Source of the DNA: a virus
Virus record (IMG/VR): IMGVR_UViG_3300042868_003731
Location: 1-64,000 of that record
Length of the DNA: 64,000 nt
Strand: one strand, 5' to 3'
Made by a program: the position numbers and the translations under genes. The notes under the pieces are model-generated. The model worked only from the letters and a program-made list of their open reading frames with translations, did not search any database and was not told the origin of the DNA. Below, piece by piece: positions 33,061-60,393 of this stretch; position 1 is the first letter of the stretch; every line of letters begins with the position of its first letter.

Positions 33061-33348
33061 CTATCTTCCTTCTATAATTGAGAGTAGCTTATCTTTATAG
33101 GCCTCAATCTTCTTTACACGATCCGGCCAATAAATTGTTGATTTCTCTGGATTTCTGCAGAGATTATCTAAGAACGGAACTATCGAATTGTATAGTCTGT
33201 TCAATCTTTCTTGAAGATCCTCGATTGCAGCTTGGTCGTTTGCGTGAGCAGACTCAAGTTTAATCGCAGTCTCTTTTACTTCTTCGATTTCGTCGTCTAT
33301 GAAACTAAATCCAAAATCAAAGTCTATGATTTCTTTATTCTTTGTCAT
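33061..33348 (-). CDS. Conserved hypothetical next to uvsX
   Basis: 95 residues from the ATG at 33348 with a GAGGTG site upstream. EIIDFDFGFSFIDDEIEE at the N-terminus and LYNSIVPFLDNLCRNPEK plus YWPDRVKKIEAYKDKL at the C-terminus form a pattern recurring beside uvsX in marine T4-like phages. Possible recombination accessory; no known fold. Confidence 0.75.
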   Translation of the reverse strand: MTKNKEIIDFDFGFSFIDDEIEEVKETAIKLESAHANDQAAIEDLQERLNRLYNSIVPFLDNLCRNPEKSTIYWPDRVKKIEAYKDKLLSIIEGR

Positions 33349-33370
33349 GTGAATCACCTCTTTAAGTGGA

Positions 33371-33390
33371 AGAGGAGCCGAAGCTCCTCT
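33371..33390 (-). terminator. UUCG-loop terminator downstream of gp32
   Basis: Perfect 8-bp stem AGAGGAGC/GCTCCTCT closing a TTCG tetraloop on the minus strand, 4 bp after the gp32 stop, with tail TTCCACTT. Strong hairpin; may partly terminate high gp32 transcription. Confidence 0.7.
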
Positions 33391-33393
33391 CTA

Positions 33394-34317: not shown

Positions 34318-34386
34318 CGGTGTATCTCCTTGTATGCGATGTATGACAATGTATTGCAATTTTATGACGGATCAACCATCACAATA

Positions 34387-34992
34387 CTATTTATCTTCGA
34401 AAAACTGTTCTTTCACAATCTTCGAAAATTTTTTTTGATCCACTTCCATGAATGGATAATATTTCTTGGATAACCTTATTATATCGCGCGCGATGAATTT
34501 GTCAACTATTTCTTTTTCCCATAGGTCATAAACGTTTGATATGCGGGCTAAAATAGAAAACGTCTCGAGCGATATTTCTTTACGTAGGTATAGAGTCATA
34601 ACGTATGGATGCTGACCATCTTTCACTACGAAGTTGTCGTGATAGTTCTCTTTAAGTTTCTTGATGTCGTTCTTGAACATATACGTAAGAGACTCTACTC
34701 TCTTTTCCCATTCGACGAATATGTTCTCACCTGTTTCATCTACGATATCGCGGATCCATACCTTTTGATTATGGATAATGTTCGCGAGTAGAATCTTAGT
34801 AGGATCGTTTCTCTTTGACAGTTTGTAAAAGAAAAACGCGTCGTTTCGTGTCTGAAATTTATCAAAGGACGCGCGCACTTTACCATTATACTTATGATAA
34901 TCGTAGCTATCGCTTTCAAAGTGTTTCTTCAATGCCAAGTAGTTGACATAGACACGAAACGACTCCTCATTAGCATAATTTAACGAGACCAT
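34387..34992 (-). CDS. 59: Helicase loader, T4 gp59-like
   Basis: 201 residues. All-helical; FRVYVNYLALKKHFESDSYD and KVRASFDKFQTRNDAFFFYK match the gp59 family, which loads gp41 on gp32-covered forks. Located between gp33 and gp32, the usual order in T4-like phages. Overlaps gp33 by 23 bp. Confidence 0.88.
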   Translation of the reverse strand: MVSLNYANEESFRVYVNYLALKKHFESDSYDYHKYNGKVRASFDKFQTRNDAFFFYKLSKRNDPTKILLANIIHNQKVWIRDIVDETGENIFVEWEKRVESLTYMFKNDIKKLKENYHDNFVVKDGQHPYVMTLYLRKEISLETFSILARISNVYDLWEKEIVDKFIARDIIRLSKKYYPFMEVDQKKFSKIVKEQFFEDK

Positions 34993-35203
34993 TCTCTTCC
35001 TTCTTCACCATTCTTACAGCAACCGCTTCTTCACGAATTTTTTCCTTGAGTATCGAAGATTTCTTAACGATCTCTGCGACTGTTTCAATCTCAAGGTCAT
35101 TTTCTTTCGCGTATTCTACTAGCGCATCGATATATGTAGCGCCGTTCGAAAGCTTGGAGGCGATTTCCATATGTATCTTTTCTGCTGTTCTTGTGACAAT
35201 CAT
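34970..35203 (-). CDS. 33: Late transcription co-activator, T4 gp33-like
   Basis: 77 residues. YIDALVEYAKENDLEIETVA plus EIVKKSSILKEKIREEA match the small gp33 family, which links the sliding clamp to the phage-modified RNA polymerase at late promoters. Its presence fits the many TATAAATA boxes here. Confidence 0.82.
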   Translation of the reverse strand: MIVTRTAEKIHMEIASKLSNGATYIDALVEYAKENDLEIETVAEIVKKSSILKEKIREEAVAVRMVKKEENGLVKLC

Positions 35204-35413
35204 TTAACTTTTCAATACCTTTATATTATCTAACCAGCTGGAAACAGCTGCTCGAGTTCTTTCTACTTGCTTTTCCTCGAAGATACGAGTTTCGATCAAC
35301 TGATCGTTCTTGTAGTAATCAACTCGATGGTTGTCAGAGTCTTCATAGATCTTTGCGGAATACATGATCCCGTGATTTTCGCGAATGATTAATTCGACTA
35401 ATTTACTATCCAT
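35204..35413 (-). CDS. Small hypothetical protein upstream of gp33
   Basis: 69 residues from the ATG at 35413 (AAGGGA site upstream; a TTG two codons earlier is less likely). Mixed alpha/beta, charged. One base before gp33. The perfect sigma70-like promoter at 35493-35521 would drive it. Confidence 0.65.
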   Translation of the reverse strand: MDSKLVELIIRENHGIMYSAKIYEDSDNHRVDYYKNDQLIETRIFEEKQVERTRAAVSSWLDNIKVLKS

Positions 35414-35423
35414 ATGCAATCCC

Positions 35424-35540
35424 TTACTTTACTAAAAACCCAATTCTCGAAACATCTAAAAAGCCGTCTCCATCGTCACGGCTTTCGATATAAGTATAAC
35501 CCATTTTTCTATAAATGTCAACTACTTTTATATCATCCAA
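35424..35540 (-). CDS. 38-residue ORF after the bilin reductase
   Basis: TTG start at 35540 with an AGGAG site 7 bp upstream; it reads MDDIKVVDIYRKMGYTYIES and continues to residue 38. It begins 1 bp after the bilin reductase stop. It also contains a TTGACA/TATACT promoter, so the region may be regulatory rather than coding. Confidence 0.45.
   Translation of the reverse strand: MDDIKVVDIYRKMGYTYIESRDDGDGFLDVSRIGFLVK
35493..35521 (-). promoter_or_regulatory. Perfect sigma70-like early promoter
   Basis: TTGACA, 17-bp spacer, TATACT on the minus strand. It would transcribe the gene at 35204-35413, gp33, gp59 and gp32. Confidence 0.65.
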
Positions 35541-35541
35541 G

Positions 35542-36216
35542 CTAGATCTCCTCGAATAAAACACTATCTATGTAGTTGTTTTTATCGTTTTCAGAGATAC
35601 CCATCGAGAGTATTGATCTGTGAAGATGCGGATTTAGCTTTTGGTTCCTACAGTATTGATTGTGTCTCTCAGTGATCTTTATTGGATTCGTGACGTAAAG
35701 ATTGCTCTTCATATTCGTTACATAGTATTCAACGAGATGAAGGCAGGTCTTTGAGAGTTGATCGATCTCTTCCTCAGATTTTAAATTACCTGCCGCGATC
35801 ATTGAAGTTGAGAAGATACTCTGAGCCCAGTCAGGAAGATCACGAGGTTTAGACCATGAAAGATCCTTCGCCGTGTCTCTCATATAACTCAGGTATGGGT
35901 GTTCTGGAGTTTCGTCCGTAGTTGGAGAGAAGTCAAAGAACGATCCGGTGATCTTACTTGGGCCTGCCACGATGTCGAAACCAAGGATTGGAAAGTTAAA
36001 ATGCTCGTGCGGAAATATATTCACATGCATAAGCCAGAGTTTTTGTGACTCTCTATTGTCAATCGTCTTTAAGTGACACTTTCGAACATACTTGGAACTC
36101 CAGATATTATCTTTCCATCCATCGAATAGTTCTAGGCTAGAGTTCCTACTATAGTGATCGTCAAAGATACTTTCAATCTTCTTTGACAGTTGAATCAGCG
36201 GGGTCCATACCTCCAA
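35542..36216 (-). CDS. Ferredoxin-dependent bilin reductase (PcyX/PebS-like)
   Basis: 224 residues, size typical of the family. It reduces biliverdin, the product of the heme oxygenase encoded upstream. The family region is readable: LWLMHVNIFPHEHFNFPILG, then FDIVAGPSKITG and the Asp of FFDFSP. A TTG start is chosen because GGAGG lies 6 bp upstream; it overlaps the heme oxygenase gene by 44 bp. Phage-encoded members include PebS (cyanophage) and PcyX (oceanic viruses thought to infect Alphaproteobacteria), so a PcyX-type enzyme making phycoerythrobilin is the best guess. Confidence 0.88.
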   Translation of the reverse strand: MEVWTPLIQLSKKIESIFDDHYSRNSSLELFDGWKDNIWSSKYVRKCHLKTIDNRESQKLWLMHVNIFPHEHFNFPILGFDIVAGPSKITGSFFDFSPTTDETPEHPYLSYMRDTAKDLSWSKPRDLPDWAQSIFSTSMIAAGNLKSEEEIDQLSKTCLHLVEYYVTNMKSNLYVTNPIKITERHNQYCRNQKLNPHLHRSILSMGISENDKNNYIDSVLFEEI

Positions 36217-36766
36217 AGTAATCCTCCAATTCTTCTAGAAATTTCTGAACCATGCTAAAGCATACTTTAGCTTCTTTCTCTAAACCGTCGTGTAGATTGT
36301 TTCGAATAAGAGTCTTTAATTCATCGACATCTCTTTCGAACTCGTAGAAGTTAGTTGGTCCTGGTACTAGCTTCTTTATCATCTGGCCACCGGAAAGGTC
36401 TCCCATGTGTCTAACATACATATGTGCAAGAAGCTTGTCTTTATCTTCTTTAATCTTATGAATGTATTCTACATAAGCAGTTGCGGCGGGTAGAGTAGGG
36501 GCAGTTTTTAACGAGATCTCGGACTCTGACTCCATGATCGTAATATCTTCGAGGATAGCAGCCGACCTTAATATGCCGAAGATATCCTCTCCGAAGATTC
36601 CTACTTCTGTCGCATAATACTCTAGAGTAACGTACATAAGTAACTGATTCTTCAAGTACGTGTAATACTGATAAGGTGTAAGTTTTTTCTTTAACATTCT
36701 ATTCATAAAAGCAGTTCGTTCTGCTCTTCTGTGCTCTTCTTTCGTGAGCTCTCTCAAATTGTTCAT
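36173..36766 (-). CDS. ho1: Heme oxygenase
   Basis: 197 residues. It opens heme to biliverdin, CO and iron. The proximal heme ligand is His12 (LTKEEHRRAER) and the distal helix shows GDLSGGQM (residues 122-129). Together with the bilin reductase it forms a two-step pigment cassette. No host-type photosynthesis genes are in the window. Confidence 0.92.
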   Translation of the reverse strand: MNNLRELTKEEHRRAERTAFMNRMLKKKLTPYQYYTYLKNQLLMYVTLEYYATEVGIFGEDIFGILRSAAILEDITIMESESEISLKTAPTLPAATAYVEYIHKIKEDKDKLLAHMYVRHMGDLSGGQMIKKLVPGPTNFYEFERDVDELKTLIRNNLHDGLEKEAKVCFSMVQKFLEELEDYFGGMDPADSTVKED

Positions 36767-36975
36767 GGCTTACAAATATTTCCTTTACTCGTTATTGCAT
36801 CAATACCAATCTTACTGAATTCTTCAAAGTTCTTAGTTACTATTTTACTCAGTTCTGTCTGTTTGTCAATAAAATTCAGCAGCCCAGCCTTGATTTTTTC
36901 ATCAGAGACAGTTGATCTTACGAACTGTCTCTTTGTTTCTTGAACGAAGTCTATAAAGTAATTTACGTTTAGCAT
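36763..36975 (-). CDS. Small helical protein upstream of heme oxygenase
   Basis: 70 residues, amphipathic helices throughout (MLNVNYFIDFVQETKRQF...), ending NICKP. Overlaps the heme oxygenase start by 4 bp, so translated with it. A GATAAATA late-like box lies upstream near 37006. Faintly phasin-like in composition; function unknown. Confidence 0.6.
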   Translation of the reverse strand: MLNVNYFIDFVQETKRQFVRSTVSDEKIKAGLLNFIDKQTELSKIVTKNFEEFSKIGIDAITSKGNICKP

Positions 36976-37012
36976 TTTTGAAATCCTTTGTGGTGTGATA
37001 TAATATTTATCA

Positions 37013-39058
37013 TCATTTTGAAGTTGCTATGAATACTCCGTTCCAATCTTTTGGAAGTTTTTGAGTTTTCATATATTCGCAACGCTCGATCCACATATCA
37101 TAATACTTATCCATTTTTCCATCGAAACAGTGTCTAAGGCTTTGGCAAAGTTCAATAGCTTCGCTAAACTTTTGTCTTAGATACAGTTCATGCATCGCAT
37201 CGTGAATTTTTTTGTTGCTAATATAACTCGGCTGAACATCATCTAGTACCGTGTAAATTGAAATACCTACAGTTTTACCTTTTACTGCTAGATCATCTAT
37301 CTTAAGGAAAAAGAAGTCATCTTTACAATGTTCAACGGTTGCACCACCAACTAATAGCAAGCAGCCGTATTCTTTACATTTGCTTTCAATGCGAGCAGCG
37401 GTTGATACGCTGTCACCTAACACGTCATAGCTGTGGCGTTTAGTTGAGCCCATTTCCCCAATATAACCAAGACCGGTATTAATGCCGGCACCCATGCCTA
37501 CGGGTGGGCGACCTTGAGGTATGATAACATCTTTATTAAATTTTTCTACGGCCTTAAGCATGTCCAATCCACACTGGACAGCGGTTTTAGGATGATGCGG
37601 ATCGTCGATAGGAGCGTTATGTATGTGCATTGACGCGTCACCAATGTACTTAATAATCATACCACTAGAGTCAAGAACTGGCTGTGTAATTGCATCCATG
37701 TATCCATTCATTACCTTTGTAAGACCAGCAACATCATCACCAAAACTTTCGCCTAAAGGAGTAAAGCCACGAAGATCAGAGAATAGAATACTAACTTCTT
37801 TCTTAACGCCTTTTTTAATTAAATCTGGATTCTTCTGTAGGATCTCAACAACCTCAGGTGAAGCATATCCTCCGAACTGTTTCTTAATCGCTTGCTTCTG
37901 TAGGAATTCGTCTATGAACTTTACAGCATAACGAATTAGACCAACGAGCAGTAATCCGGCTGGAATTATAACGCCGTCGATAAGCATCTTATATTCAGCG
38001 AACGCATACATACTTGATGCAATGCTTGCTACGACAACTACCGCAAAGAATGCTAGACCGACGTAGGTCCATCTCGCTAATGCTATCAGAAGTAAACCTG
38101 CGATACTGAATGCGATGAGTTCCATACCTGGTGCCCAAGCCGGTCTCTCAATATTCGTACCGTTGAATACAGTTCCCAATAGAGCAGCTTGAAGATCGTG
38201 CGGCCATACTTGACCAGCTGCAGTCGCTATCGGGTTATTGATACCTGCAGCCGTAGGAGCTACAAACACCACCGCACCACCGAAGTCTTCAGGAAGATCT
38301 GTCGCACTTACTGATATTGACTTTTGACTCCAGTCGATCCATACTCTCGCAAGTTCGTCCGTTGAGATAGGACCAAACTGTGGAACTCTTAACTTATCAA
38401 CTCCAAGTGGCGAAAGACGTATCTGAAAGCTTGGATCACCAGCAAGAACTCGAAGAACCTCGAGTGTTAAGTTTGGATACAAAACACCTTCAGACTCAAT
38501 AACGAGTGGAACACGTCTTGTGACACCATCGGGTTCAGGAAGTGTATTAACGATACCGGATCCAATAGCAAACTTCTCAAGCTCAGGAATGTTTGCAATG
38601 ACGCCAGGATACGAAAGAATGAGATCCTGATACTCAGAGTTAATGATTGCTGCACCAGGATTGATCGGTTCGTTCACGGTTCGATCACCGCCGACTGTAT
38701 TAAGAACGACTGGGTTCTTTTGTAGAGTCTCAGTCAACTTATAGTCTTCACCGAAGCGATCCTTCTCGCTCATCAGGACGCCGAACACGACGAGTCCTGC
38801 ATTCCTAGCATATAGATCTTCGATTAATGCTGCATATTCTCCTCGAGGCCATGGCCACTGACCCTTTTCTTCGATCGCAGCTTCATCAATATTCACAGTG
38901 TAGATATTGTTTTGAACCGGTTCTTGATTCACTATCAATTGGTCAAAATATCTAAGCTTTATGCTTTCTAAGAAACCGGGGTTACTTACAAACAGCATAC
39001 ACAATAATCCGAGTACTAATAGACTCCAAATAGGTGATAACAATATCTTCTTCATCAT
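37013..39058 (-). CDS. CHASE2-domain adenylate cyclase (class III)
   Basis: 681 residues. N-terminal membrane helix (about 10-24), extracytoplasmic CHASE2 sensor (about 30-300, WPWPRGEYAALIEDLYARNA), three membrane helices (about 312-378), then a class III nucleotide cyclase domain. Metal Asp428 (ILFSDLRGFT) and Asp474 (KYIGDAS) are present, as are Lys470 and Asp545 for adenine recognition and Arg556. The transition-state Asn is Ser552 (VSTAARIE). It probably makes cAMP in response to a periplasmic signal. It lies beside FecR and curli genes; how it affects them is unknown. Confidence 0.88.
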   Translation of the reverse strand: MMKKILLSPIWSLLVLGLLCMLFVSNPGFLESIKLRYFDQLIVNQEPVQNNIYTVNIDEAAIEEKGQWPWPRGEYAALIEDLYARNAGLVVFGVLMSEKDRFGEDYKLTETLQKNPVVLNTVGGDRTVNEPINPGAAIINSEYQDLILSYPGVIANIPELEKFAIGSGIVNTLPEPDGVTRRVPLVIESEGVLYPNLTLEVLRVLAGDPSFQIRLSPLGVDKLRVPQFGPISTDELARVWIDWSQKSISVSATDLPEDFGGAVVFVAPTAAGINNPIATAAGQVWPHDLQAALLGTVFNGTNIERPAWAPGMELIAFSIAGLLLIALARWTYVGLAFFAVVVVASIASSMYAFAEYKMLIDGVIIPAGLLLVGLIRYAVKFIDEFLQKQAIKKQFGGYASPEVVEILQKNPDLIKKGVKKEVSILFSDLRGFTPLGESFGDDVAGLTKVMNGYMDAITQPVLDSSGMIIKYIGDASMHIHNAPIDDPHHPKTAVQCGLDMLKAVEKFNKDVIIPQGRPPVGMGAGINTGLGYIGEMGSTKRHSYDVLGDSVSTAARIESKCKEYGCLLLVGGATVEHCKDDFFFLKIDDLAVKGKTVGISIYTVLDDVQPSYISNKKIHDAMHELYLRQKFSEAIELCQSLRHCFDGKMDKYYDMWIERCEYMKTQKLPKDWNGVFIATSK

Positions 39059-39086
39059 TTTCGTTTCTTTCTTAAAATTTCATTCG

Positions 39087-39266
39087 CTATCGCTTCTTTA
39101 ATCCAAGCAGCTTTGCCTTTAAATCATCCGACTCATTTGGCGTATCTTTAATAACTTTCTTAGATGGCTCTCTTTTTATCGAAGGGGTCTCTTCATCAAA
39201 TCCCCACTTTCTTTTTTCTTCTGCAATTCTCATACGAAGTTCGTTTACTTGTTTCGATATATCCAT
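39087..39266 (-). CDS. 59-residue basic protein between cyclase and fibre genes
   Basis: MDISKQVNELRMRIAEEKRK at the start, then an acidic/Pro stretch and a LKAKLLGLKKR end. An AAAGG site lies upstream. Predicted helical and cytoplasmic. It sits in the gap between the cyclase and the curli-linked genes. No family recognised. Confidence 0.6.
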   Translation of the reverse strand: MDISKQVNELRMRIAEEKRKWGFDEETPSIKREPSKKVIKDTPNESDDLKAKLLGLKKR

Positions 39267-39307
39267 CTGTAAACCTTTTGACTAACTATTAATCTATATA
39301 TCTTATT

Positions 39308-39646
39308 CTACTTAGAGTTCTGTAATTCTATACCAAAGACGATGCCAACATTATTGTTTTCAAATCCTGGTGTGATGTAACCTATTACATTATCATTAAA
39401 ATCGTATGTTGTTCTGATAAAAGGAAGCACTTCGTAATTGCCGTATCCAGACACTACGCCAAATTCATGGTTCCACTTGGATCGTGTTATTTGAACACCG
39501 GCGTACGCGCTTAAAGCATCTTCGCTGTTATAATAAGCGCCGGCGATAAAACTATCGTCTTGTAAACGGATATGAGGATGAATGCTATTGTAATGTTGTT
39601 CAAAGTCTAAATGAAAACTCAATGCTATTCCGTATATTAAATCCAT
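39308..39646 (-). CDS. Beta-strand-rich conserved phage protein
   Basis: 112 residues. Alternating beta pattern and the motif NSIHPHIRLQDDSFIAGAYY plus NSEDALSAYAG resemble a small outer-membrane-barrel-like protein found in several T4-like marine phages. No clear signal peptide. Precedes the fibre-like genes. Role unknown. Confidence 0.6.
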   Translation of the reverse strand: MDLIYGIALSFHLDFEQHYNSIHPHIRLQDDSFIAGAYYNSEDALSAYAGVQITRSKWNHEFGVVSGYGNYEVLPFIRTTYDFNDNVIGYITPGFENNNVGIVFGIELQNSK

Positions 39647-39659
39647 TTTAATTTCCTCG

Positions 39660-41342
39660 CTACTGATTCACTGTTAAGTTACACCCCGCAGAAACATTAC
39701 ATACTCCGGATACAGTACTTCCATCGCTCATACTATGTGGCAAACTGTATGTCTTAGAAGTTGATCCGGACTGGTTTAGAATAAAATTCCATGCTCCGCC
39801 ACCGTTCTCTAACTGAACAGTCGCAGCATGACTGCCGCTTCCATCCTGAATTACGCTAGCATTATGATCGTTCCCAATTAACGTTAGATTTAAATAATGG
39901 TTCCCAGTTCCTTTTTGGTTCACGGACAGATCATTGCTGTTTCCGTTAACGTTTAAGAACATGTTTTTTCCAGTTTCTCTTTGCTGTAGTATTAGGCTGT
40001 TTCCATTGCCGATGATGTCAGCCTCTAGATAGTGTCTAGATGATGTAGTTGTTGTCTGTAAAATATCTGTGCTATTGTTATCACCATCGATATTTAAGAT
40101 AGCATAATGGCTTCCACCAATCTGTTGGATCTGAACATCATTGTCGTTTCCAACAATATTTACATTTGCATTATGACCGTTCGTCAAAGCAAGGTTGGCC
40201 GCTCTTCTCATCGCCTGTGAAGGATTGATACCTGACGAGTAAACCGGGGTTGGAGCAGATCCTGGGTTTGATACAGATCCTGAACCAGTCGCCGTTGATG
40301 TTGTTGTGTTGCCTGAATTGTAGTAGAATGTAATTTCTGCAATCTGCATACTGTCACAGTTCAAACCACAGCCGTCTCCGGATTTAGTCGTGGGAAAGAA
40401 TATGTAATAGTAGACATACGCATTGCTGTTTGTGACTGGAATTTTAGGACTGGTCCAGAATCTATCGTTACTAAGTGATAAAGCACCTTCTTGAATCAAC
40501 GTCCAGTTTACACCGTCGTTACTTGCGTATAGCTTATAACTCGTCGGGTCTCTTCCTGAGAAGTCATTCGCAGTGGTAAGTGTAAACTCGTTTACCACTC
40601 GCCCAGCGTTTAGTTTAATAGTAACACCAGCGTTTTTCTTATCAAAGTTTAGATACTTTGTGTTTGGATTATTATCAAACGCTTGCGAAGCACCTTCACC
40701 CGATGGGCTGTTATTACTCGTAGGATAGTGATTGGTTATGTTAACATTCGAGCTGTTATTATAGATTGGAGTTGCGACAGCAGGTGGTGGCGCAGTCTGT
40801 CCCGCAGCCAACGGCGTTGAGCTTGGTGGAACATACGCTTGAAGTTGACTATTCGTTGGGTTATCTTGAGTGACAGACCACGAACCGCTTTGACCAAGAC
40901 TATATCCTTGACCGGTAGTGATGAGAGTTCCCCACATACCGTTGCCGTTATAGAAGATCGCTCCGTTGGCTAATGCTCGAAACGAGCCTGTGTTGTTAAT
41001 TATTTTGTATCTTGTGCCGTCGCTATTGAACACGGCCATACCGTAGGTGCCAGGATTGGTTGTACTATTAAAGAACCCAATGTATCTGCCATTACTGTTT
41101 GCGTCTGCAGTTTGTGCAGCTGTCCATCTAGCAGCCGAATTAGTCTGAGTAGCATAGTTCACGCTCGCAAAGATATAGTTAAATCCGCTCGCATGCAGTG
41201 TTCCGCCGGAAATATACCACTGCACGTCGAATATCTGCGCAGTGCTGAGCTTTAAGTCAGTGATAGCCGCAGCGGCAATACTAACGAACATAAGGTAAAC
41301 GAGTATCGCGCTACTGAGTCTGGATAGTAGTGATAGAAACAT
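39660..41342 (-). CDS. Secreted protein with F5/8C-like domain and curlin-type repeats
   Basis: 560 residues from the ATG at 41342 (GGAGG 5 bp upstream). Signal peptide (to about residue 29, AAAA), an N-terminal beta region, an F5/8 type C (discoidin)-like sugar-binding domain (about 210-345, KLYASNDGVNWTLIQEG), then curlin-like repeats (about 390-540) with spaced QQ/GN motifs such as GNDNDVQIQQIGG and GDNNSTDILQ. Probably an amyloid-forming surface adhesin exported by the CsgG pore encoded nearby. Overlaps the FecR gene by 32 bp. Confidence 0.7.
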   Translation of the reverse strand: MFLSLLSRLSSAILVYLMFVSIAAAAITDLKLSTAQIFDVQWYISGGTLHASGFNYIFASVNYATQTNSAARWTAAQTADANSNGRYIGFFNSTTNPGTYGMAVFNSDGTRYKIINNTGSFRALANGAIFYNGNGMWGTLITTGQGYSLGQSGSWSVTQDNPTNSQLQAYVPPSSTPLAAGQTAPPPAVATPIYNNSSNVNITNHYPTSNNSPSGEGASQAFDNNPNTKYLNFDKKNAGVTIKLNAGRVVNEFTLTTANDFSGRDPTSYKLYASNDGVNWTLIQEGALSLSNDRFWTSPKIPVTNSNAYVYYYIFFPTTKSGDGCGLNCDSMQIAEITFYYNSGNTTTSTATGSGSVSNPGSAPTPVYSSGINPSQAMRRAANLALTNGHNANVNIVGNDNDVQIQQIGGSHYAILNIDGDNNSTDILQTTTTSSRHYLEADIIGNGNSLILQQRETGKNMFLNVNGNSNDLSVNQKGTGNHYLNLTLIGNDHNASVIQDGSGSHAATVQLENGGGAWNFILNQSGSTSKTYSLPHSMSDGSTVSGVCNVSAGCNLTVNQ

Positions 41343-42408
41343 TCGTTCCTCCATCGTTTATTTGTACAACCGCAAATACTCCATCCTGAGTTACGTTATA
41401 CGTTCCGTTCGTATCTAAACTTGTTGTCAGCATTGATATATGCGGTGAACGATCAGAATCTAATAACATGAACTCTTCATTCACGACTGCGCGTATCCAT
41501 GGAAAGTTCTTAATGTTAGGTAGTACTTCGCTTTCTTCCTCTTCTAGCATACTCTCAAGAGATGCCACGTTGATTTCTAGAAGATTATCCAAATAAGTGT
41601 TATTCACTCTGTTTACGTCAAGCGAGTTGGTCGTTAATTCTTCATCTTCAGCAAGCAAGTCTTCAGAGAGTTCTTCATTCTCTAAGAGATCAACATCAAG
41701 TTCGGTTCGTATCTCTTCCTCTTCTTCATCGTTAGAAAATCCGCCTGGAAATTCTGATGGAGGAACTATGATAAGATTGTTATTGATGTTTGATTGATCT
41801 AAAAGAAGTTTACGAGGATCCGCCGGAGATAGCCCGCTGTGAGACACCATAGTTGCTTGATAAGATTCATTTAGCATCACGGTTCCGCCATCAGTACTCA
41901 CTGAGATGGATCCGACTGGGCATTCGTCTTCATTGAGAGTTTCGTCTGGGCAGCTAGGTAGGAGAATGATTAGACTGCGACCAAGCTCGTCAACCGTCAT
42001 AGAGAAGTCTGTTCCTCTGACCGTAATGCTTGCCGTTGGCGTGCGGATGTCGACGTTCTCTCTGCTAGTTTTGGCTAGCAGACCAGATGTCATCTGAACT
42101 GTTCCAAGAGCAACCTCCATCGACATCTTACCAGCGCTCGTGTTTGGATCGTACACAAAATCATCAATCACTAGCTCACTCTGCTCTGTAATTTCAACTC
42201 GCGTGCCATCTTCAAATGTTAGGCCGAGCCGAGTATTAGCAGTAATTAATTGATCTAACATTTCAACACCAAAGCCCATCTCAACAGTGAGTTTATCACT
42301 GTCTCTTCTGGCTTCAGCTGCATTTCCTTTGAAATCAGTCACGGTCCCAACTTCGGCAATCGCGAAGTTGGGAATGATCATCATTACGATGAATAAGATT
42401 CTCCACAT
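41311..42408 (-). CDS. FecR-domain protein
   Basis: 365 residues from the ATG at 42408, 2 bp after the curlin stop. Signal peptide (to IAE, about residue 19), FecR-like core (about 20-170: GNAAEARRDSDKLTVEMG, TRLGLTFEDGTRVEI, TASITVRGTDFSM), then an acidic linker and a C-terminal NVTQDGVFAVVQINDGGTN segment of curlin flavour. FecR domains often accompany CHASE2 cyclases in bacteria. Its part in amyloid assembly or sensing is inferred. Confidence 0.78.
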   Translation of the reverse strand: MWRILFIVMMIIPNFAIAEVGTVTDFKGNAAEARRDSDKLTVEMGFGVEMLDQLITANTRLGLTFEDGTRVEITEQSELVIDDFVYDPNTSAGKMSMEVALGTVQMTSGLLAKTSRENVDIRTPTASITVRGTDFSMTVDELGRSLIILLPSCPDETLNEDECPVGSISVSTDGGTVMLNESYQATMVSHSGLSPADPRKLLLDQSNINNNLIIVPPSEFPGGFSNDEEEEEIRTELDVDLLENEELSEDLLAEDEELTTNSLDVNRVNNTYLDNLLEINVASLESMLEEEESEVLPNIKNFPWIRAVVNEEFMLLDSDRSPHISMLTTSLDTNGTYNVTQDGVFAVVQINDGGTNVSITTIQTQ

Positions 42409-45439: not shown

Positions 45440-45600
45440 TTCTGTTTCGAGGTCGGTGACCCACCCAAGTAGATTATGCTGCGAGAGCGTAAGCTACAGG
45501 AGCTGCGTTTGTGTTTGCAGTTGTAATTTTGGCTGAATAACGTAGGCCAACACGGTAATCTCCACTTGCTTTCAACACCTGTCGATCCCTAGTCAGCCCC
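45440..45600 (-). ncRNA. ssrA: tmRNA coding piece (permuted gene, downstream part)
   Basis: The 5' end at 45600 reads GGGGCTGACTAGGGATCGAC, pairing its GGGGCTG with CAGCTCC of the acceptor piece. A pseudoknot-1-like hairpin TTGGC/GCCAA and a helix CAAGTGG/CTACTTG flank the message region. The tag frame 45518-45477 reads ANTNAAPVAYALAA and stops at 45474, the standard form of a proteolysis tag. Two-piece permuted tmRNAs are typical of Alphaproteobacteria. The RNA rescues stalled ribosomes together with SmpB (not seen here). The 3' end is approximate. Confidence 0.88.
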
Positions 45601-45612
45601 GCCAAAAGTAAA

Positions 45613-45918
45613 TTAAAGGTTATGAAGATTGTGATGGTCGTTGTCATATGTGTGAATTGCATGACAGTTATGACATAAAATTCTACACTTACTGATTTCT
45701 TCCATCAACATTTCCATACCCCAACGAGTAAGTTGTTTAGCAGAATATTTTGGATGCTTTGTGCTAGGATCCAAATGATCAAATGCTAATGCTTGTGGAT
45801 GTTTATTAAAACCACAAATTTCGCATCCTCTGCTTATTTTATACTCATTTAGAAACGCGCGCCTTTCCAGACCCTTGTCTTTCTTATACTGCTTAAAAAC
45901 TTCTTTATCTGCAAACAT
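45613..45918 (-). CDS. HNH endonuclease inside the tmRNA intervening segment
   Basis: 101 residues from the ATG at 45918 with AGGAGG 6 bp upstream. CEICGFNKHP, FDHLDPSTK and CRILCHNCHA form the paired Cys2 zinc sites and the catalytic HNH/DH core. The whole gene fits within the 360 bp between the CCA end of the tmRNA acceptor piece (45960) and the first base of the coding piece (45600), where processing would normally discard the RNA. Probably a homing-type mobile gene. Confidence 0.88.
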   Translation of the reverse strand: MFADKEVFKQYKKDKGLERRAFLNEYKISRGCEICGFNKHPQALAFDHLDPSTKHPKYSAKQLTRWGMEMLMEEISKCRILCHNCHAIHTYDNDHHNLHNL

Positions 45919-45959
45919 AGATTCCTCCTTTGTTTCGCAAACATCGTTTAATTTACTTT

Positions 45960-46020
45960 TGGTGGAGCTGCGGGGATTTGAACCCCGGTCCAGAATGTCT
46001 ATCGTCTGCTTCAACGATTA
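45960..46020 (-). ncRNA. ssrA: tmRNA acceptor piece (permuted gene, upstream part)
   Basis: Reads a T-arm (CGGGG TTCAAAT CCCCG), acceptor strand CAGCTCC, discriminator A and encoded CCA at 45962-45960. ACATTCTG can pair with CAGGTGT of the coding piece as helix 2. It lies upstream of the coding piece on the transcribed strand, so the gene is circularly permuted. The 5' end is set from the promoter at 46028-46055. Confidence 0.88.
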
Positions 46021-46027
46021 CTAGTTA

Positions 46028-48687: not shown

Positions 48688-49191
48688 TTAATATCTAGAG
48701 CTCTTAAGTTTTTGAACTTCTTTATAGTTTGCAGCGTTCTGTAGAAATATCCTTGGTATCTCTAGATGTTTCGGCAAAGAAAGAACATATTGTATTAAAT
48801 CACAGACTTCTGAGTAAGTTACAGAAGGAAGGGAGTCTTCTAGCATTCCAAGATTGATCGTAGTGATCCTACATTTCTTATGGCTGTTATAAGTAATGTT
48901 ATCCGCAATGTGATCGAGAGACGCTTTTTGAGCCGCATACATGTAACCCTTTGAAAGATTTGGTAGACCTGCTCTCGACGATATGTTGATGATGAGCTTA
49001 CTACTATCTTCGTACCAAGCATGGCACCATTCTTCGAGTAAGAGTGTTTGCTGAAATCCAACGTGAGCATTATTAATGAAGACATCATAGTCTGATTTCT
49101 CTATCCTATCTTCAACTCGATAAGAGTCTGCGCCAAACCTATCTATGATGGCACCAGCGAGTTTACTGCTTCCAGTGACTGCGATTCTCAT
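48688..49191 (-). CDS. Short SDR-family oxidoreductase
   Basis: 167 residues. VTGSSKLAGAII is the nucleotide-binding start, FINNAHVGF the NNA motif and YMYAAQKASLDH the YxxxK site. Similar in size and layout to the SDR at 19139-19681. Overlaps the radical SAM gene by 29 bp. Substrate unknown, perhaps a sugar. Confidence 0.7.
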   Translation of the reverse strand: MRIAVTGSSKLAGAIIDRFGADSYRVEDRIEKSDYDVFINNAHVGFQQTLLLEEWCHAWYEDSSKLIINISSRAGLPNLSKGYMYAAQKASLDHIADNITYNSHKKCRITTINLGMLEDSLPSVTYSEVCDLIQYVLSLPKHLEIPRIFLQNAANYKEVQKLKSSRY

Positions 49192-50068
49192 TATAATGCT
49201 CCATTAAAATATCATAGCTCTTTTCTCCTACGAGTGTACCTATGACGCTGCACTTATTACAGGGACTAAAGTTTCTATTTGCTCTCGAGAGTCTCATTCT
49301 TACCTTCTGCATTTCCTTACTCATCCAAACTTCGGAGATAGGTTGCTGCATTAGGTTACCAACGACTCGTTCTCTACCCCAATCGTTTGCGCAGAACAGA
49401 ACGTCACCATTCCAATCAACGTATAGTTTATAGAAGGGATAGAAGCACTTATTGTTCTTCACGTTCTCAAGAGTATCAGTATCATCCATCCATTTGATAA
49501 GACCGGAACGATTATTGAATATGATCCCATGATCCTTTGGATCCCAATGAACTCTATACTTATAGTTCTTTTCTGGTATACCCTCGAGGATCTCGTCAAA
49601 GTATTGAATCTGTTCTGGGCCGTCGTACATATTGATATTAAGTACATCAAGACCAGCTTCAATCAGATCCTTGATAAGAGTCGTGTTAAGAGGATCTCCA
49701 TTTGTATTGCACTCAATGTACGCTTTACTATTGTGCGTTCTTAAGGCTCTAATGATATTTACAATGTCAGGGTTTAGAAGGTTTTCACCGAAGCCAGAGA
49801 TGGCGATTGTTCCGGTGTATTGTATATCAGCCAATCTCTTGGCTATGATCTCTGCGCCACTCGTCGTCATTCGAAGATTTCGATTTGGATAGACTCGAGG
49901 ATCGTGTCGAGGACAGAACACGCAGGAACGATTGCATAAATCAATCGTAGTGATATCAACAGACGAAATTGATTTCAGAATGTTCTGAGAGTCAAGAGTC
50001 TCGAAGTATTTCGTTTCTATGTCTTGACGTCTTTGAATAAACGTATGTTGGTTATCAGTTTCTTTCAT
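49163..50068 (-). CDS. Radical SAM/SPASM-domain enzyme
   Basis: 301 residues. The CNRSCVFCP motif (CxxxCxxC) binds the radical SAM cluster; ISGFGENLLNPDI and CNTNGDPL are typical later motifs. The C-terminus has extra Cys (CFYPFY, FCANDWG, CNKC) as in SPASM domains that hold auxiliary clusters. Such enzymes modify peptides or sugars. It overlaps an SDR and a putative glycosyltransferase, so a glycan-linked task is plausible. Confidence 0.82.
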   Translation of the reverse strand: MKETDNQHTFIQRRQDIETKYFETLDSQNILKSISSVDITTIDLCNRSCVFCPRHDPRVYPNRNLRMTTSGAEIIAKRLADIQYTGTIAISGFGENLLNPDIVNIIRALRTHNSKAYIECNTNGDPLNTTLIKDLIEAGLDVLNINMYDGPEQIQYFDEILEGIPEKNYKYRVHWDPKDHGIIFNNRSGLIKWMDDTDTLENVKNNKCFYPFYKLYVDWNGDVLFCANDWGRERVVGNLMQQPISEVWMSKEMQKVRMRLSRANRNFSPCNKCSVIGTLVGEKSYDILMEHYNENRSHWKQ

Positions 50069-51108: not shown

Positions 51109-51182
51109 GTACCGTGCATGGGCTTCGATCCCATTCCATCTCAGTCACAGTGAGATATGCTTCCACTTACACTTGTCACGGC
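51109..51182 (-). tRNA. tRNA-His (GTG) lacking G-1
   Basis: Anticodon loop CTGTGAC (GTG) on stem ATCTCA/TGAGAT. Acceptor starts G1 with U72, discriminator A73, encoded CCA, and U at -1 instead of the universal G-1. This A73/G1:U72 form is known from a subset of Alphaproteobacteria with a divergent HisRS. Pair 7-66 is a mismatch. Confidence 0.85.
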
Positions 51183-53234: not shown

Positions 53235-53307
53235 TGGAGCGGGTGGCCGGAATCGAACCGGTCTCCTATAGCTTGGAAGGCTAGTTGGCTACCTTAGCCT
53301 CACCCGC
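53235..53307 (-). tRNA. tRNA-Gly (TCC)
   Basis: Acceptor GCGGGTG/CACCCGC, anticodon loop CTTCCAA (TCC), T-arm ACCGG TTCGATT CCGG, encoded CCA. Confidence 0.88.
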
Positions 53308-53317
53308 ATTAAATTAT

Positions 53318-54067
53318 TTATCCGTTATTTCTTTCTGCATAGATATCTACTAAAAATACATCAGATTCATACGGATGTAAATGTTCTGTATTCGTTATTT
53401 CTTTATTCAAAAAAGCTCTACAAAGTTTTTCTAAAACTGATATCTGCCATGTAATATTACTATAGTTATGCTTTACTATATTATCTAACCAAAATGCAGA
53501 ATTCTTTTTGTATTCTTGTAACGGCAAAATGTTAAATGATTTAATTTCAAATCCATTTTCATTGAACATATTTTTCCAATTATCTATTGTTCTAATTTTC
53601 ATAACCCAGTTTTCATTTAAATAAAAGTCACTTTTATTTGTTTGTACAAAATCATTTATGAAAATTCTATCAGTAGTTTTTGCCAAGTTTGAAAACGCCG
53701 TATCTTTCATATGTGTAATACTTTGAATGAATGATACGATTTCGTATTTAGAATTTGTAGTGTATTCATTAGCGTTTGCAAGAATAACATTGAATTCGTC
53801 TCCAATGTATTCTGCCTGCTGTTTTGATTCGGTTAAACCTGTTATGTGAGCATTTGGAGATATTGACTTAATACGATGTAGCGAGCCACCCCACCCACAG
53901 CCAACATCTAGAACCGTAGCTACATTTTCAAAAATTTTTCTATTATTTAATATTGACTCGCCAAACGCATAATGCATTTGTGTTTCTTTAGATAATATAT
54001 TTTTCCAAACTTCTATTGAAGTTTCATCGAAAAACTTTTTTGAATTATCTAAATACTCTTCACTCAT
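53318..54067 (-). CDS. SAM-dependent methyltransferase
   Basis: 249 residues. Class I motif VLDVGCGWGGSLHRI (motif I), GLTESKQQAE (motif II acidic), VSFIQSITHM (motif IV region). AT-rich, with a long C-terminal extension; possibly modifies a sugar or small metabolite. Preceded by a structured RNA and a late promoter (54195-54290). Confidence 0.75.
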   Translation of the reverse strand: MSEEYLDNSKKFFDETSIEVWKNILSKETQMHYAFGESILNNRKIFENVATVLDVGCGWGGSLHRIKSISPNAHITGLTESKQQAEYIGDEFNVILANANEYTTNSKYEIVSFIQSITHMKDTAFSNLAKTTDRIFINDFVQTNKSDFYLNENWVMKIRTIDNWKNMFNENGFEIKSFNILPLQEYKKNSAFWLDNIVKHNYSNITWQISVLEKLCRAFLNKEITNTEHLHPYESDVFLVDIYAERNNG

Positions 54068-54860: not shown

Positions 54861-55487
54861 TTAACTTTCTGTAATGTTGTAAATGTAATGGTCAGAGGTC
54901 TCAAAAGTTCTCTTATTCTCTACTGAATAACAAGTCATATCAATTTCATACCCGGGATTGGCTGAGATACGATTAGATGTAAATGCGCTATCATACCATA
55001 TAATTCTATTATTTGGATAAGCGTAGTAATTTCCAGTTTCTACTTTGAACAGATGAGCACACTTATGCTCAGGTGTTTCTGCAAAGTTAAAATCGGCCAT
55101 TGCTTTGTTTTCAAAGCCCCAATCAAGAGTGAACATGTAATCACCACGTACTTTTGTATTATCAGGACGAATTAGTTCAGCGCTTAACCCAGCCAAGCGA
55201 TGTCTACGTTGAACGTCAATGTACGTGGAAAAACAATCCCAATACATGATTTGATTTAGTGGTTCTATTTCTGCTTCCGGATCCCAACAAAGCGCGTGCA
55301 GAGGTCTACGAGTCCAGTTTACACCATTTTCTAAAAAGCATTCAAATAATGGCGTTCTTTTCTCCATGCTTGCGACTGAGTGAACATTACATTTGGAAAC
55401 TTCGCCATGTCCTTTTGTGTGATTGTACAAAAACTCATTGCGAATGTAGCAAGGCCAATCTGGTAGGTTGTGATTTAGATACGACAT
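54861..55487 (-). CDS. Hypothetical protein
   Basis: 208 residues, Trp/Tyr/His-rich, with no signal peptide (MSYLNHNLPDWPCYIRNEFL...). The pattern of aromatic beta strands suggests a compact beta fold, perhaps an enzyme or binding protein. AAGGA site upstream. Not recognised. Confidence 0.65.
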   Translation of the reverse strand: MSYLNHNLPDWPCYIRNEFLYNHTKGHGEVSKCNVHSVASMEKRTPLFECFLENGVNWTRRPLHALCWDPEAEIEPLNQIMYWDCFSTYIDVQRRHRLAGLSAELIRPDNTKVRGDYMFTLDWGFENKAMADFNFAETPEHKCAHLFKVETGNYYAYPNNRIIWYDSAFTSNRISANPGYEIDMTCYSVENKRTFETSDHYIYNITES

Positions 55488-55511
55488 TTATTTACACTTT
55501 CCTTAATATAG

Positions 55512-55645
55512 TTATCCGGCTCTAACATATGCACGACCTGAGAAGGTTTTTATCGGCTTTGCCAGCATATACAGCGCTAGTTAATGTAAGCGGTACATAA
55601 GTTGTCTCGGTTACTCTTATGCCATTTCTTACAAAGTCGGATTCG
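55512..55645 (-). pseudogene. 3'-end remnant of a structural-type gene with a frameshift
   Basis: Minus-strand reading VTETTYVPLTLTSAVYAGKA continues, after one extra base in an A5 run (55547-55551), as FSGRAYVRAG and stop at 55512. No start codon is left before tRNA-Sup(CTA). It looks like a decayed gene end captured between tRNAs. Confidence 0.45.
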
Positions 55646-55723
55646 TGGTGGTCCAAGCGGGATTTGAACCCGCGGCCGTGAGTTTTAGAGACTCGCGCTC
55701 TAACCAAGCTGAGCTATAGGACC
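55646..55723 (-). tRNA. tRNA with CTA anticodon (candidate amber suppressor)
   Basis: Full cloverleaf: acceptor GGTCCTA/TTGGACC (one mismatch), D-arm with GGTT, T-arm GCGGG TTCAAAT CCCGC, encoded CCA. Anticodon stem GAGT/ACTC with loop CTCTAAA gives CTA, which reads UAG. The loop differs from the Trp tRNA encoded at 55886 (CTCCAAA) by one base, but the rest is unlike it. Confidence 0.78.
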
Positions 55724-55732
55724 ATATTTAAC

Positions 55733-55796
55733 AGGATCGTTTTGTCCGCTAAGACATCCAATACGATTTAGCGTTTTTGTTTGCTGAACCGATCCT
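55733..55796. ncRNA. 64-nt structured RNA element, copy 1
   Basis: Ends are perfect 7-nt complements AGGATCG/CGATCCT. Inside are a CGCTAA/TTAGCG stem and a small GTTTGCTGAAC hairpin, giving a three-way junction. A second copy of identical length lies at 58274-58337 with the same stems and different loop. No tRNA features. Strand cannot be decided; neighbours are on the minus strand. Confidence 0.55.
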
Positions 55797-55802
55797 AAAT
55801 TT

Positions 55803-55879
55803 TGGTCCGAGTAGCAGGATTTGAACCCACGACATCTTGCTCCCAAAGCAAGCGCTCTACCAAACTGAGCTATACTCGG
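55803..55879 (-). tRNA. tRNA-Pro (TGG)
   Basis: Acceptor begins C1-G72 as usual for Pro; anticodon stem CTTGC/GCAAG with loop TTTGGGA (TGG); encoded CCA. Confidence 0.9.
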
Positions 55880-55885
55880 ATATAT

Positions 55886-55960
55886 TGGCACCGGTGGTAG
55901 GAATCGAACCCACTGCGCGAGGTTTTGGAGACCTCCGCTCTACCATTGAGCTACACCGAT
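55886..55960 (-). tRNA. tRNA-Trp (CCA)
   Basis: Anticodon stem GAGGT/ACCTC with loop CTCCAAA (CCA), G73, encoded CCA, acceptor ATCGGTG/CACCGGT. Confidence 0.9.
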
Positions 55961-55968
55961 ATAAATTT

Positions 55969-56044
55969 TGGCTCCCTGACCAGGGCTCGAACCTGGGACA
56001 TTCTGATTAACAGTCAGACGCTCTACCAACTGAGCTATCAGGAA
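55969..56044 (-). tRNA. tRNA-Asn (GTT)
   Basis: Anticodon stem TCTGA/TCAGA with loop CTGTTAA (GTT), G73, encoded CCA, T-arm CCAGG TTCGAGC CCTGG. Confidence 0.92.
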
Positions 56045-56049
56045 ACTAT

Positions 56050-56139
56050 CTCTGTTTTCCGCTATACCCCAGCGCATTGCGTGTTTCAGTAAAGTTTGGG
56101 TGGCCGACCCTCATTTACGGGATATAGCGGGAAACAGAG
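56050..56139 (-). ncRNA. 90-nt structured RNA under a late promoter
   Basis: A 17-bp closing stem (CTCTGTTTTCCGCTATA on plus pairing with TATAGCGGGAAACAGAG, one G-U). Inside, GTAAA/TTTAC encloses GGGT/ACCC. The promoter at 56155-56162 would start the RNA just upstream. No tRNA features. Resembles the closing stem of the element at 60186-60334. Confidence 0.55.
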
Positions 56140-56154
56140 CACTCGTTACAATAC

Positions 56155-57549: not shown

Positions 57550-57739
57550 AGAATGTTTGGGGAAAGCTAAGATTGCTCTTAGCGGCACCTTGCCATACTC
57601 CCCATCAAAGATACACTGTTTGGATTCAAACCTTGTTCTAGTCTTGTCGATCTGCGCTTCTCACAGTGCTGACAGTGTATCCATGGTGGGGAGTACTGGA
57701 ATCGAACCAGTAGTTTTGTTTTGTTGCTGTAAACATTCT
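57550..57739 (-). ncRNA. Candidate permuted tRNA-like RNA
   Basis: On the minus strand the order is: AGAATGTTT (57739-57731); a T-arm ACTGG TTCGATT CCAGT; acceptor 3' strand ACTCCCC, A73 and encoded CCA (57684); a 72-nt segment closed by a 10-bp stem GATACACTGT/ACAGTGTATC; then the 5' acceptor strand GGGGAGT (57603-57597), a small D-arm-like GGC/GCC hairpin with GG in the loop, a GCTAAGA/TCTTAGC hairpin, and AAACATTCT pairing with the first element. The 3' half therefore precedes the 5' half, as in permuted tRNA or tmRNA genes. No anticodon was found. Confidence 0.6.
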
Positions 57740-58432: not shown

Positions 58433-59098
58433 TTATTTTTGCGCTTCTGTATTTCTATATACAAACAGACCTTTGTCTATCGTATAGTTATGTTGTCTGA
58501 TACCACCAAAAGTCCACAGTTCTCTTTCTTGTTCGATACTCTGTAAGTTGTTTGGTGGTTCAATTCTAGCTGTTTTCTTAATCGAAGAAATGTTTGAATT
58601 CTCTCCGTTTGATGCTTTAATATTAAATTGAACGCTTTCGATTTGAAAAAGTTTATTGCGAATTACGTTCATCATACTATCAATATATGATATTCTCTTT
58701 GTGTCGTGAAACATCATCTCTCCGCCGTTCTTTAACAGATACCATGTCTTACGCGCAAAGTCTTCTCTAAATGTTTTCTCACCATCAACAAATATGAGAT
58801 CAAAGCTTTCTTCTCTAATTTCTTTATTCATGAAATCTTTATACCGATAGAACTCATAATTATTAGACTTATGTTCAATAAGATCTAATCTATTCTGTAG
58901 TTCTTCAATCCATTGCTGTCGAGTCTCAACGCAAGTAACTGATGCGTTAGAATCAATACTCTGAAGAAATATCATTGTCGAGCCACCAGGGCCAAATTCT
59001 AATATCTTTAGAGCAGTCTTTGACTTCTGAGCTAGTACGTCTGCGTCTTCAAGACTAAGAGCGCCAACCCATTGCATATTTTGAATATGAGTTAACAT
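58433..59098 (-). CDS. Class I SAM-dependent methyltransferase-like protein
   Basis: 221 residues from the ATG at 59098 (AAAGG site). ILEFGPGGSTMIFLQSID is motif I, TCVETRQQW motif II, DLIFVDGEK motif IV. Probably a small-molecule or glycan methyltransferase. Sits between tRNA-Arg and tRNA-Ser. Confidence 0.72.
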   Translation of the reverse strand: MLTHIQNMQWVGALSLEDADVLAQKSKTALKILEFGPGGSTMIFLQSIDSNASVTCVETRQQWIEELQNRLDLIEHKSNNYEFYRYKDFMNKEIREESFDLIFVDGEKTFREDFARKTWYLLKNGGEMMFHDTKRISYIDSMMNVIRNKLFQIESVQFNIKASNGENSNISSIKKTARIEPPNNLQSIEQERELWTFGGIRQHNYTIDKGLFVYRNTEAQK

Positions 59099-59121
59099 AG
59101 GAAACCTTTCAATAGAAAGTA

Positions 59122-59197
<76 letters not shown>

Positions 59198-59204
59198 AAT
59201 GTTT

Positions 59205-59273
59205 TTGGCTCTAGCACCTCCTCGTGCCGACTTAGCTGCCCTATCCCAGCAGTACCGATTATAATAAGACCAA
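59205..59273. ncRNA. Structured element between tRNAs
   Basis: About 69 nt closed by TTGG/CCAA, with hairpins GCAC/GTGC and CTGC/GCAG. No tRNA features; weaker than the other elements. Confidence 0.35.
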
Positions 59274-59283
59274 GAAATAATTT

Positions 59284-59360
59284 TGGTAGGCCCGCACGGA
59301 CTCGAACCGCGATCAGCAATCTTATGAGGATTGTGACTTAACCAATTAGTCGACAAGCCC
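59284..59360 (-). tRNA. tRNA-Met or tRNA-Ile2 (CAT)
   Basis: Anticodon stem CAATC/GATTG with loop CTCATAA (CAT), A73, encoded CCA. Whether C34 is modified to lysidine (Ile) cannot be told. Confidence 0.85.
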
Positions 59361-59367
59361 ACTAAAA

Positions 59368-59931
59368 TTATTTCTTTCTATTTCTTGCGCTTTCAGTCAT
59401 TTTCTTTTTTGTTTCTTCTGAAAATGTTTGTCTTGCCCGCGCTTCTTTTATCTTATTTTTTGTTTCTTCTGAAAGTTTTCTTCCACTCATTGTTTTTGAT
59501 ATTTTATCTTTTTGATTTGATGATATTGTTTGACCTTTGTTCCAAGCAGCGTTATCTTTATAGTGTTCTTTAAGACCTTCACTTATTTTTTTACGATGAT
59601 CTACAGAGCTACTTATTTCTTTCATGTAAGAGCCGTGCTTTTTCCCTTTGAAATGAGGTCCTCCTTCTCCGCCAATTCCGGCGTTGTAAGTATCTTTTCT
59701 GGATACAAACTCTTCTGTTATCAACTCTTTCTCTTTTGTATTCATTTCTTCTTCAGTATCGAAGACAAATAGTATCTCTTTAGTAAAGTTCTCTTTACCA
59801 TATTTCTTCATGGCAGACCTTATGAACTTTCCAGAGCCATAATATCTATCATTGAGATTGGTAGTTTGATGCTTTCCTATGTATATTTTTCCGTTAAGCT
59901 CATTAGTTATTTGGTATATTGTGTAAAGCAT
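59368..59931 (-). CDS. GIY-YIG homing endonuclease
   Basis: 187 residues from the ATG at 59931 (AAGGAG site). TIYQITNELNGKIYIGKH holds the GIY-YIG motif with catalytic Tyr/Arg region RYYGSG; the C-terminus has NUMOD3-type DNA-binding repeats (KISKTMSGRKLSEETKNKI). Seg-type mobile gene inserted in the tRNA cluster. Late promoter at 59949-59956. Confidence 0.88.
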   Translation of the reverse strand: MLYTIYQITNELNGKIYIGKHQTTNLNDRYYGSGKFIRSAMKKYGKENFTKEILFVFDTEEEMNTKEKELITEEFVSRKDTYNAGIGGEGGPHFKGKKHGSYMKEISSSVDHRKKISEGLKEHYKDNAAWNKGQTISSNQKDKISKTMSGRKLSEETKNKIKEARARQTFSEETKKKMTESARNRKK

Positions 59932-59948
59932 TATAATCTCCTTTTGTC

Positions 59949-59956
59949 TATTTATA
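59949..59956 (-). promoter_or_regulatory. T4-type late promoter (TATAAATA)
   Basis: Exact TATAAATA on the minus strand, 18 bp upstream of the GIY-YIG gene. Confidence 0.75.
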
Positions 59957-59973
59957 CAAAAAGATATTTCATA

Positions 59974-60006
59974 GCGGGCAACTCTAACCAATTGAGCTAA
60001 TCCCCC
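59974..60006 (-). other. 5'-half tRNA remnant
   Basis: GGGGGATTAGCTCAATTGGT plus TAGAG is a perfect tRNA 5' acceptor and D-arm, but no anticodon arm, T-arm or 3' half follows; the late promoter of the GIY-YIG gene begins instead. Probably a leftover of the homing insertion. Confidence 0.55.
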
Positions 60007-60103: not shown

Positions 60104-60181
60104 TGGTTGCGGTGGGTAGGAATCGAACCTACGTCTTCGGCTTATGAGACCGTGCTGGAACCACCTCCAGTCTACCCCGCA
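60104..60181 (-). tRNA. tRNA-Met (CAT), initiator-like
   Basis: Anticodon loop CTCATAA (CAT). The 3' end reads CGCAACCA, with A72 and A73 as in initiator tRNAs, here with U1. D-arm CTGGA/TCCAG. Acceptor has one mismatch (6-67). Confidence 0.75.
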
Positions 60182-60185
60182 AAAC

Positions 60186-60334
60186 TTCTGTTTTCAACTA
60201 TGACTGTGAAAGCTTCGAACTTTCGAGCGCTCAGGGGCACGCTGGCCCTTTTGGCATTGTAAATCACGGTCAGCCAGACCACCTATGGATTCGAACCATA
60301 GTACTCCCATTTACAGTCATATGTGAAAACAGAA
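60186..60334 (-). ncRNA. 149-nt multi-branched RNA with T-arm-like hairpins
   Basis: Closing stem TTCTGTTTTC/GAAAACAGAA and a second ATGACTGT/ACAGTCAT. A T-arm-like hairpin GAAAG/CTTTC with a TTCGAAG loop stacks on the second stem, and another CTATGG/CCATAG hairpin with TTCGAAT loop lies inside GTAAAT/ATTTAC. No CCA. Its closing stem matches that of the element at 56050-56139. Confidence 0.5.
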
Positions 60335-60393
60335 TTTCTTCTGTTTCCTTTTCTAAATTGTCAAAGAGCTAGTTAGTTTCTTCTTATATTGTT

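Follow-up and report, generated by a model that had tools for sequence, protein, structure and literature searches.

A genuine tRNA with the anticodon CUA is kept in the tRNA array of a T4-like phage group that uses the standard genetic code, and a structured RNA, judged to be non-coding from comparison among relatives, is conserved directly 3' of it. Both lie in the window, the whole stretch of 64,000 bases analyzed here (bases 1-64000 of a virus record of 217,966 bases). Suppressor tRNAs of phages with the standard code have so far been reported without explanation, and this puzzle becomes testable in a lineage whose CUA stays in position even where the tRNA body has diverged strongly. Covariation strongly supports the adjoining RNA, which is present in more than one phage lineage but matches no Rfam family. 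Two cultured Pseudomonas phages carry this RNA, unannotated as such, so its expression, its ends and the effects of its loss can be measured directly.

The record is assigned to the T4-like phages because its major capsid protein shares 66.5% identity with those of the Sinorhizobium phages phiN3, phiM7, phiM19 and phiM12. An alphaproteobacterial host is plausible. ARAGORN finds 32 tRNAs in the full record, 18 of them within the window, and Rfam models give a few weaker tRNA matches besides these. Four extra tRNA-like genes (window 51111-51181, 53238-53307 and 60108-60180, and L002 2992-3072, all on the minus strand) score above the Rfam threshold but go uncalled by ARAGORN in its default mode.

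The initial annotation placed a complete tRNA with a CTA anticodon at 55646-55723, and this reading holds. ARAGORN calls exactly this span on the minus strand, and the Rfam tRNA model, whose gathering score is 29, gives it 65.2 bits. The anticodon, located at 55686..55688 (minus strand) by ARAGORN and by comparison with relatives, lies in a 7-base loop, CUCUAAA, with U33 and A37. The variable loop has the standard five bases, the T arm is perfect and CCA is encoded. Two mismatches are present: U6-U67, which is limited to the window tRNA and L112, and C27-A43, which each of the seven other copies of this tRNA type shares. A degenerate pattern for the CUA tRNA matches once in the window and in none of 100 shuffles, and the single-sequence folding energy is mildly unusual at most (z -1.99). 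The nearest named tRNAs are Met and Ile(CAU) types and an XacN1 suppressor tRNA, and the nearest E. coli tRNA is annotated as Ile. A sequence error in the anticodon is unlikely because the identical loop recurs in the relatives L112, L090, L091, L097, L101, L108 and L120. With its complete fold and an anticodon conserved among relatives, the gene stands as a candidate amber suppressor, as first proposed.

Relatives were found with a degenerate CTA-tRNA pattern that matched 35 viral contigs, five of which are near-identical relatives. In six diverged relatives (L090, L091, L097, L101, L108 and L120) the CUA tRNA adjoins tRNA-Pro(UGG), and tRNA-Gly(UCC) and tRNA-Thr(UGU) lie downstream wherever the contig extends. 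Pair 3-70 is U-A in the near-identical set versus C-G in the diverged set, while the CUCUAAA loop is unchanged. Three further contigs (L132, L134 and L147), recovered via the neighboring structured RNA, have a CTA tRNA at the equivalent array position that has a different D arm and is 67-73% identical to the window tRNA; for L132 the call requires a lowered threshold. Because the array position is kept, the stem change is compensatory and CUA is retained on diverged bodies, the tRNA is, on this comparative evidence, under selection. Its upstream array neighbor in the window is tRNA-Pro(UGG) (55803..55879, supported by ARAGORN and relatives), beyond which ARAGORN calls tRNA-Trp(CCA) (55886..55960) and tRNA-Asn(GUU) (55969..56044), all on the minus strand. 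The spacer between tRNA-Pro and the CUA tRNA (55724..55802, minus strand) contains an AGGATC/GATCCT hairpin (z -2.61) that recurs in L090, L091, L097, L101 and L112.

Predicted gene structure indicates that UAG is an ordinary stop codon in the record and that the genetic code is standard. A simple codon-usage gene finder run over the record gave 272 predicted genes covering 91% of it, with 152 TAA, 96 TGA and 24 TAG stops. TAG does terminate the genes with ends at 35542 and 39087, as had been noted, and also those with ends at 39308, 39660 and 41311. The accompanying suggestion that read-through could extend proteins finds little to build on: these first two genes would gain 2 and 4 residues, and the next in-frame stop comes at a median distance of 6.5 codons after TAG versus 6 after TGA and 8 after TAA. 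Three TAG-terminated protein genes precede long open frames, which hold separately predicted genes; in two of the three the gene begins at an ATG 12-14 codons on, and in the third it is predicted from a TTG 2 codons past the stop. The best remaining candidate for read-through is a 106-aa TAG-terminated gene (195146-195466) followed by an in-frame 275-aa gene with a predicted TTG start (194315-195142, minus strand, in L008). Read-through of UAG may occur at a low level. TAG stops are clustered along the record, with 7 of the 24 TAG genes in window 33061-42384 (minus strand), including four consecutive ones from 39087 to 42384, and another 6 at record positions 187775-196932 (minus strand).

The initial annotation also raised the use of recoded stops in late genes. 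UAG would then stand for an amino acid, at least in those genes, and the CUA tRNA would be its decoder, like that of the code-15 crAss-like phages. The tRNA is present and conserved as such a scheme would have it, and PMC9523058 provides precedent in other phages. However, late genes are among those terminated by TAG, frames after TAG close as quickly as those after other stops, and 716 protein-to-genome cross-matches over six related genomes (G000 and five related contigs) include no TAG translated as sense; the sole TAG listed in these matches lies within an alignment gap beside two TAA. Orthologues of the TAG-terminated genes mostly have TAA or TGA stops in relatives. TAG accounts for 6-11% of stops in five CTA-carrying genomes; four relatives that yielded no CTA tRNA (three of them partial) have shares of 4.7, 7.9, 14.8 and 19.8%. 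Because the first range lies within the second, no depletion of TAG is attributable to the CUA tRNA, and avoidance of TAG as a footprint of suppression was rejected. Recoding of UAG was ruled out, as far as sequence can show, by the TAG stops, the short frames after them, the lack of sense TAG and the comparison of TAG shares, and we give it next to no credence. The code-15 crAss-like phages (PMC7886860, PMC9523058) resemble this phage in encoding a tRNA(CUA) but differ from it in that sense TAG is lacking here.

Earlier reports describe target-less amber suppressor tRNAs in phages of the standard code. Xanthomonas phage XacN1 (PMC5852040) and Stenotrophomonas phage Summit (PMC9022506) each have a CUA suppressor tRNA for which the authors sought targets and found none. 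An amber suppressor tRNA is reported in Ralstonia phage RsoM2USA (PMC8504454) and an opal suppressor tRNA in Atu_ph07. XacN1, Summit and RsoM2USA are like the present phage in having a CUA tRNA where TAG serves as a stop; the difference is that here the tRNA is traced through a lineage in which its position and anticodon are fixed, and that a conserved RNA, absent from XacN1, accompanies it.

We propose, with confidence evenly divided for and against, that the tRNA and the RNA come from one transcript, that the tRNA is a low-efficiency lysine suppressor acting on host or chance ambers and that the RNA is separate and stable. The two would share a tRNA-array transcript, and tRNA end processing would free both the CUA tRNA and the 5' end of the adjoining RNA. 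In the infected cell the CUA tRNA would then be a working, if inefficient, amber suppressor in competition with release factor 1 for UAG. It would probably be charged with lysine. Under the tRNA identity rules A73 and U35 point to this amino acid, making lysine the likeliest residue predicted for the CUA tRNA; the charging enzyme is uncertain because the nearest cellular tRNAs are of the Ile type. Useful substrates of suppression would be host transcripts or chance amber codons, not recoded phage genes, and no phage target gene was found in the frames after TAG or the 716 cross-matches. The neighboring RNA would be a separate stable phage RNA that travels in tRNA operons and has an independent role. 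No promoter or terminator particular to the tRNA-RNA pair was found.

The most serious rival to a working suppressor holds that the CUA tRNA is mainly a processing handle (its fold directing RNase P and 3' end enzymes to release the adjoining RNA) or a decoy for host anticodon nucleases, with suppression incidental. The RNA begins a few bases past the CCA in 10 of 10 CTA relatives, other phages have different tRNAs at the equivalent position before the RNA, and the search for a UAG target was empty, all of which would suit a handle or decoy. Neither role would require CUA, yet the anticodon is invariant and is retained on diverged bodies, and we regard this explanation as possible but doubtful. 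Far less credible is the conversion of C34 to lysidine on a tRNA-Ile2-like body, by which the tRNA would decode UAA instead of UAG. The Met and Ile(CAU) types nearest to the tRNA among named and cellular tRNAs favor this idea, as does C4-G69, a pair that TilS uses and that is found in every copy of this tRNA type. However, TilS is not known to us to act on a CUA loop, several relatives carry U-G in place of C5-G68, and pair 4-69 in L147 is U4-G69. UAA is also the commonest stop in this phage, and decoding it would therefore be costly. We hold lysidine formation to be very improbable.

The structured RNA (55514..55642, minus strand) is about 130 bases long and contains stems P1, P2, P3, P4, P5 and P6, which are defined by RNAalifold, a covariance model and pair counts. 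These coordinates run from the 5' to the 3' strand of the closing stem P1, and the model match covers 55506-55646. A small conserved protein, for which the window offers an open frame, was rejected for this stretch: it is conserved, but relatives carry indels of lengths not divisible by three, a pattern of conservation like that of an RNA. With seven sequences in an alignment not fitted to structure, RNAalifold gave 33 pairs, 8 of which have changes on both sides, with only 2 broken cells. Covariance model R1 found the same fold in other viral contigs, often at about 110 bases and without stem P2. Among 24 distinct sequences, 98.0% of cells are paired and 24 of 33 pairs show double changes; among 34, the 27 core pairs are 96.3% paired and 20 are double-changed, both alignments being fitted to the model and biased towards it. 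The covariation score of the 24 sequences (0.544) is reached by none of 500 shuffles (mean 0.135) and slid controls do not exceed 0.086, and the score of the 34 sequences (0.713) is likewise reached by none of 500 shuffles. The claim of a structured RNA rests on covariation because the single-sequence folding energy of the window copy is ordinary (z -0.96). For most members beyond the first group the search used the exact motifs GAGACA and CTTCTCAG, and letter conservation there is by construction; both motifs are also invariant in the first seven sequences, which were found via the tRNA. GAGA in the P3 loop may contact UCUC in the P6 loop, a proposal on which covariation is silent, as these letters are invariant and belonged to the search patterns. 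No Rfam 15 family matches the RNA at permissive thresholds (window copy, L157, L179, L176, L135 and L228).

In the window the element lies just upstream of the start of a gene (54861..55487, minus strand) for a 208-aa protein of PHROG 3704, annotated as ferredoxin, and HDV-like theta ribozymes are known to adjoin phage suppressor tRNAs (PMC10879173). Both observations would fit a cis-acting leader for the gene downstream, or else a self-cleaving ribozyme, in place of an independent RNA. This is unlikely, as the sequence downstream varies among relatives, including the gene that follows, tRNAs directly follow the RNA copies in L157 and L130, no Rfam ribozyme family matches and the conserved fold is nested, with the whole element closed by P1. 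Theta ribozymes, which lie at the 3' end of phage tRNAs, some of them suppressors (PMC10879173), are like the present element in being structured RNAs that abut a tRNA 3' end. They probably differ in fold, theirs being HDV-like and the consensus here a nested P1/(P2)/P3/P4/P5/P6 of 110-140 bases (a comparison made through Rfam models). The stable RNAs rnaC and rnaD of T4 (139 and 119 bases) likewise follow immediately after a tRNA within a T4-like array, but they are unmatched by models R2 or R3 and no shared motif is seen in the sequences. Homology to rnaC and rnaD was rejected on the lack of a T4 match with either model, a result with which remote homology is compatible.

Every record that has the structured RNA has one copy of it. 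In a survey of its context by ARAGORN at a lowered threshold, at which some anticodon calls are weak, a tRNA is called on the same strand within 6 kb of 35 of the 36 copies, and 22 copies begin no more than 8 bases from a tRNA 3' end (CUA, Leu, Ser, Lys, Met, Pro and others). A few copies stand apart from tRNAs; in L142 a TTGACA hexamer lies upstream and a T run follows P1. In L211 (IMGVR_UViG_3300049033_000018) a CTA tRNA called at the lowered threshold is about 11 bases 3' of the RNA, i.e., downstream. An obligatory link between the RNA and a suppressor tRNA was rejected: many RNA copies follow other tRNAs, and XacN1 and 13 other contigs with a CTA tRNA (some partial) are without the RNA. 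Model searches also find it absent from T4, phiM12 and phiN3.

BLAST detected the RNA in the cultured Pseudomonas phages Astolliot (OM982621.1) and Milchi (PQ464597.1), whose copies score 96 bits with model R2, which was not built from them. The region is without annotation in Astolliot, and in Milchi it is overlapped by a 105-base hypothetical CDS (CDS0136, PQ464597.1:65665-65769) that is probably a false gene call. These two phages were reached with a third RNA copy as query; two other copies gave no matches to named phages, and a 44-base core query gave chance-level matches only. When 84,980 prokaryote species genomes were scanned with a pattern, a single match came up; the model rejected it, and strictness of the pattern may matter to this yield. 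We read the element as an undescribed stable RNA that would be set free by tRNA processing. It probably represents an undescribed and widespread class of non-coding RNA of large tailed phages, single-copy, located within tRNA arrays, freed during tRNA processing and phage-specific in function, which in one T4-like lineage is paired with an amber suppressor tRNA. The literature searched, whose coverage left ZWD and most subscription journals outside, holds no description of such an RNA, and its novelty is provisional.

Long imperfect inverted repeats lie between and around the tRNA genes (window 56050-56139, 57596-57695 and 60183-60337), and the region 56045-56150 folds with a z of -4.43. Near the array are genes for a radical SAM/SPASM protein (49163-50068), a GIY-YIG (SegE-like) endonuclease (59368-59991) and two methyltransferase-like proteins (53318-54067 and 58433-59362), all on the minus strand. 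The window also contains a permuted two-piece tmRNA gene (45474-46022, minus strand, 104.6 bits), and its intervening segment carries an HNH endonuclease ORF (45613-45918, minus strand, 101 aa, PHROG 2255, E 1.5e-22) that has an AGGAGG of its own. At 251-351 bases, the tmRNA genes in G011, G007 and G016 are too short to contain this ORF.
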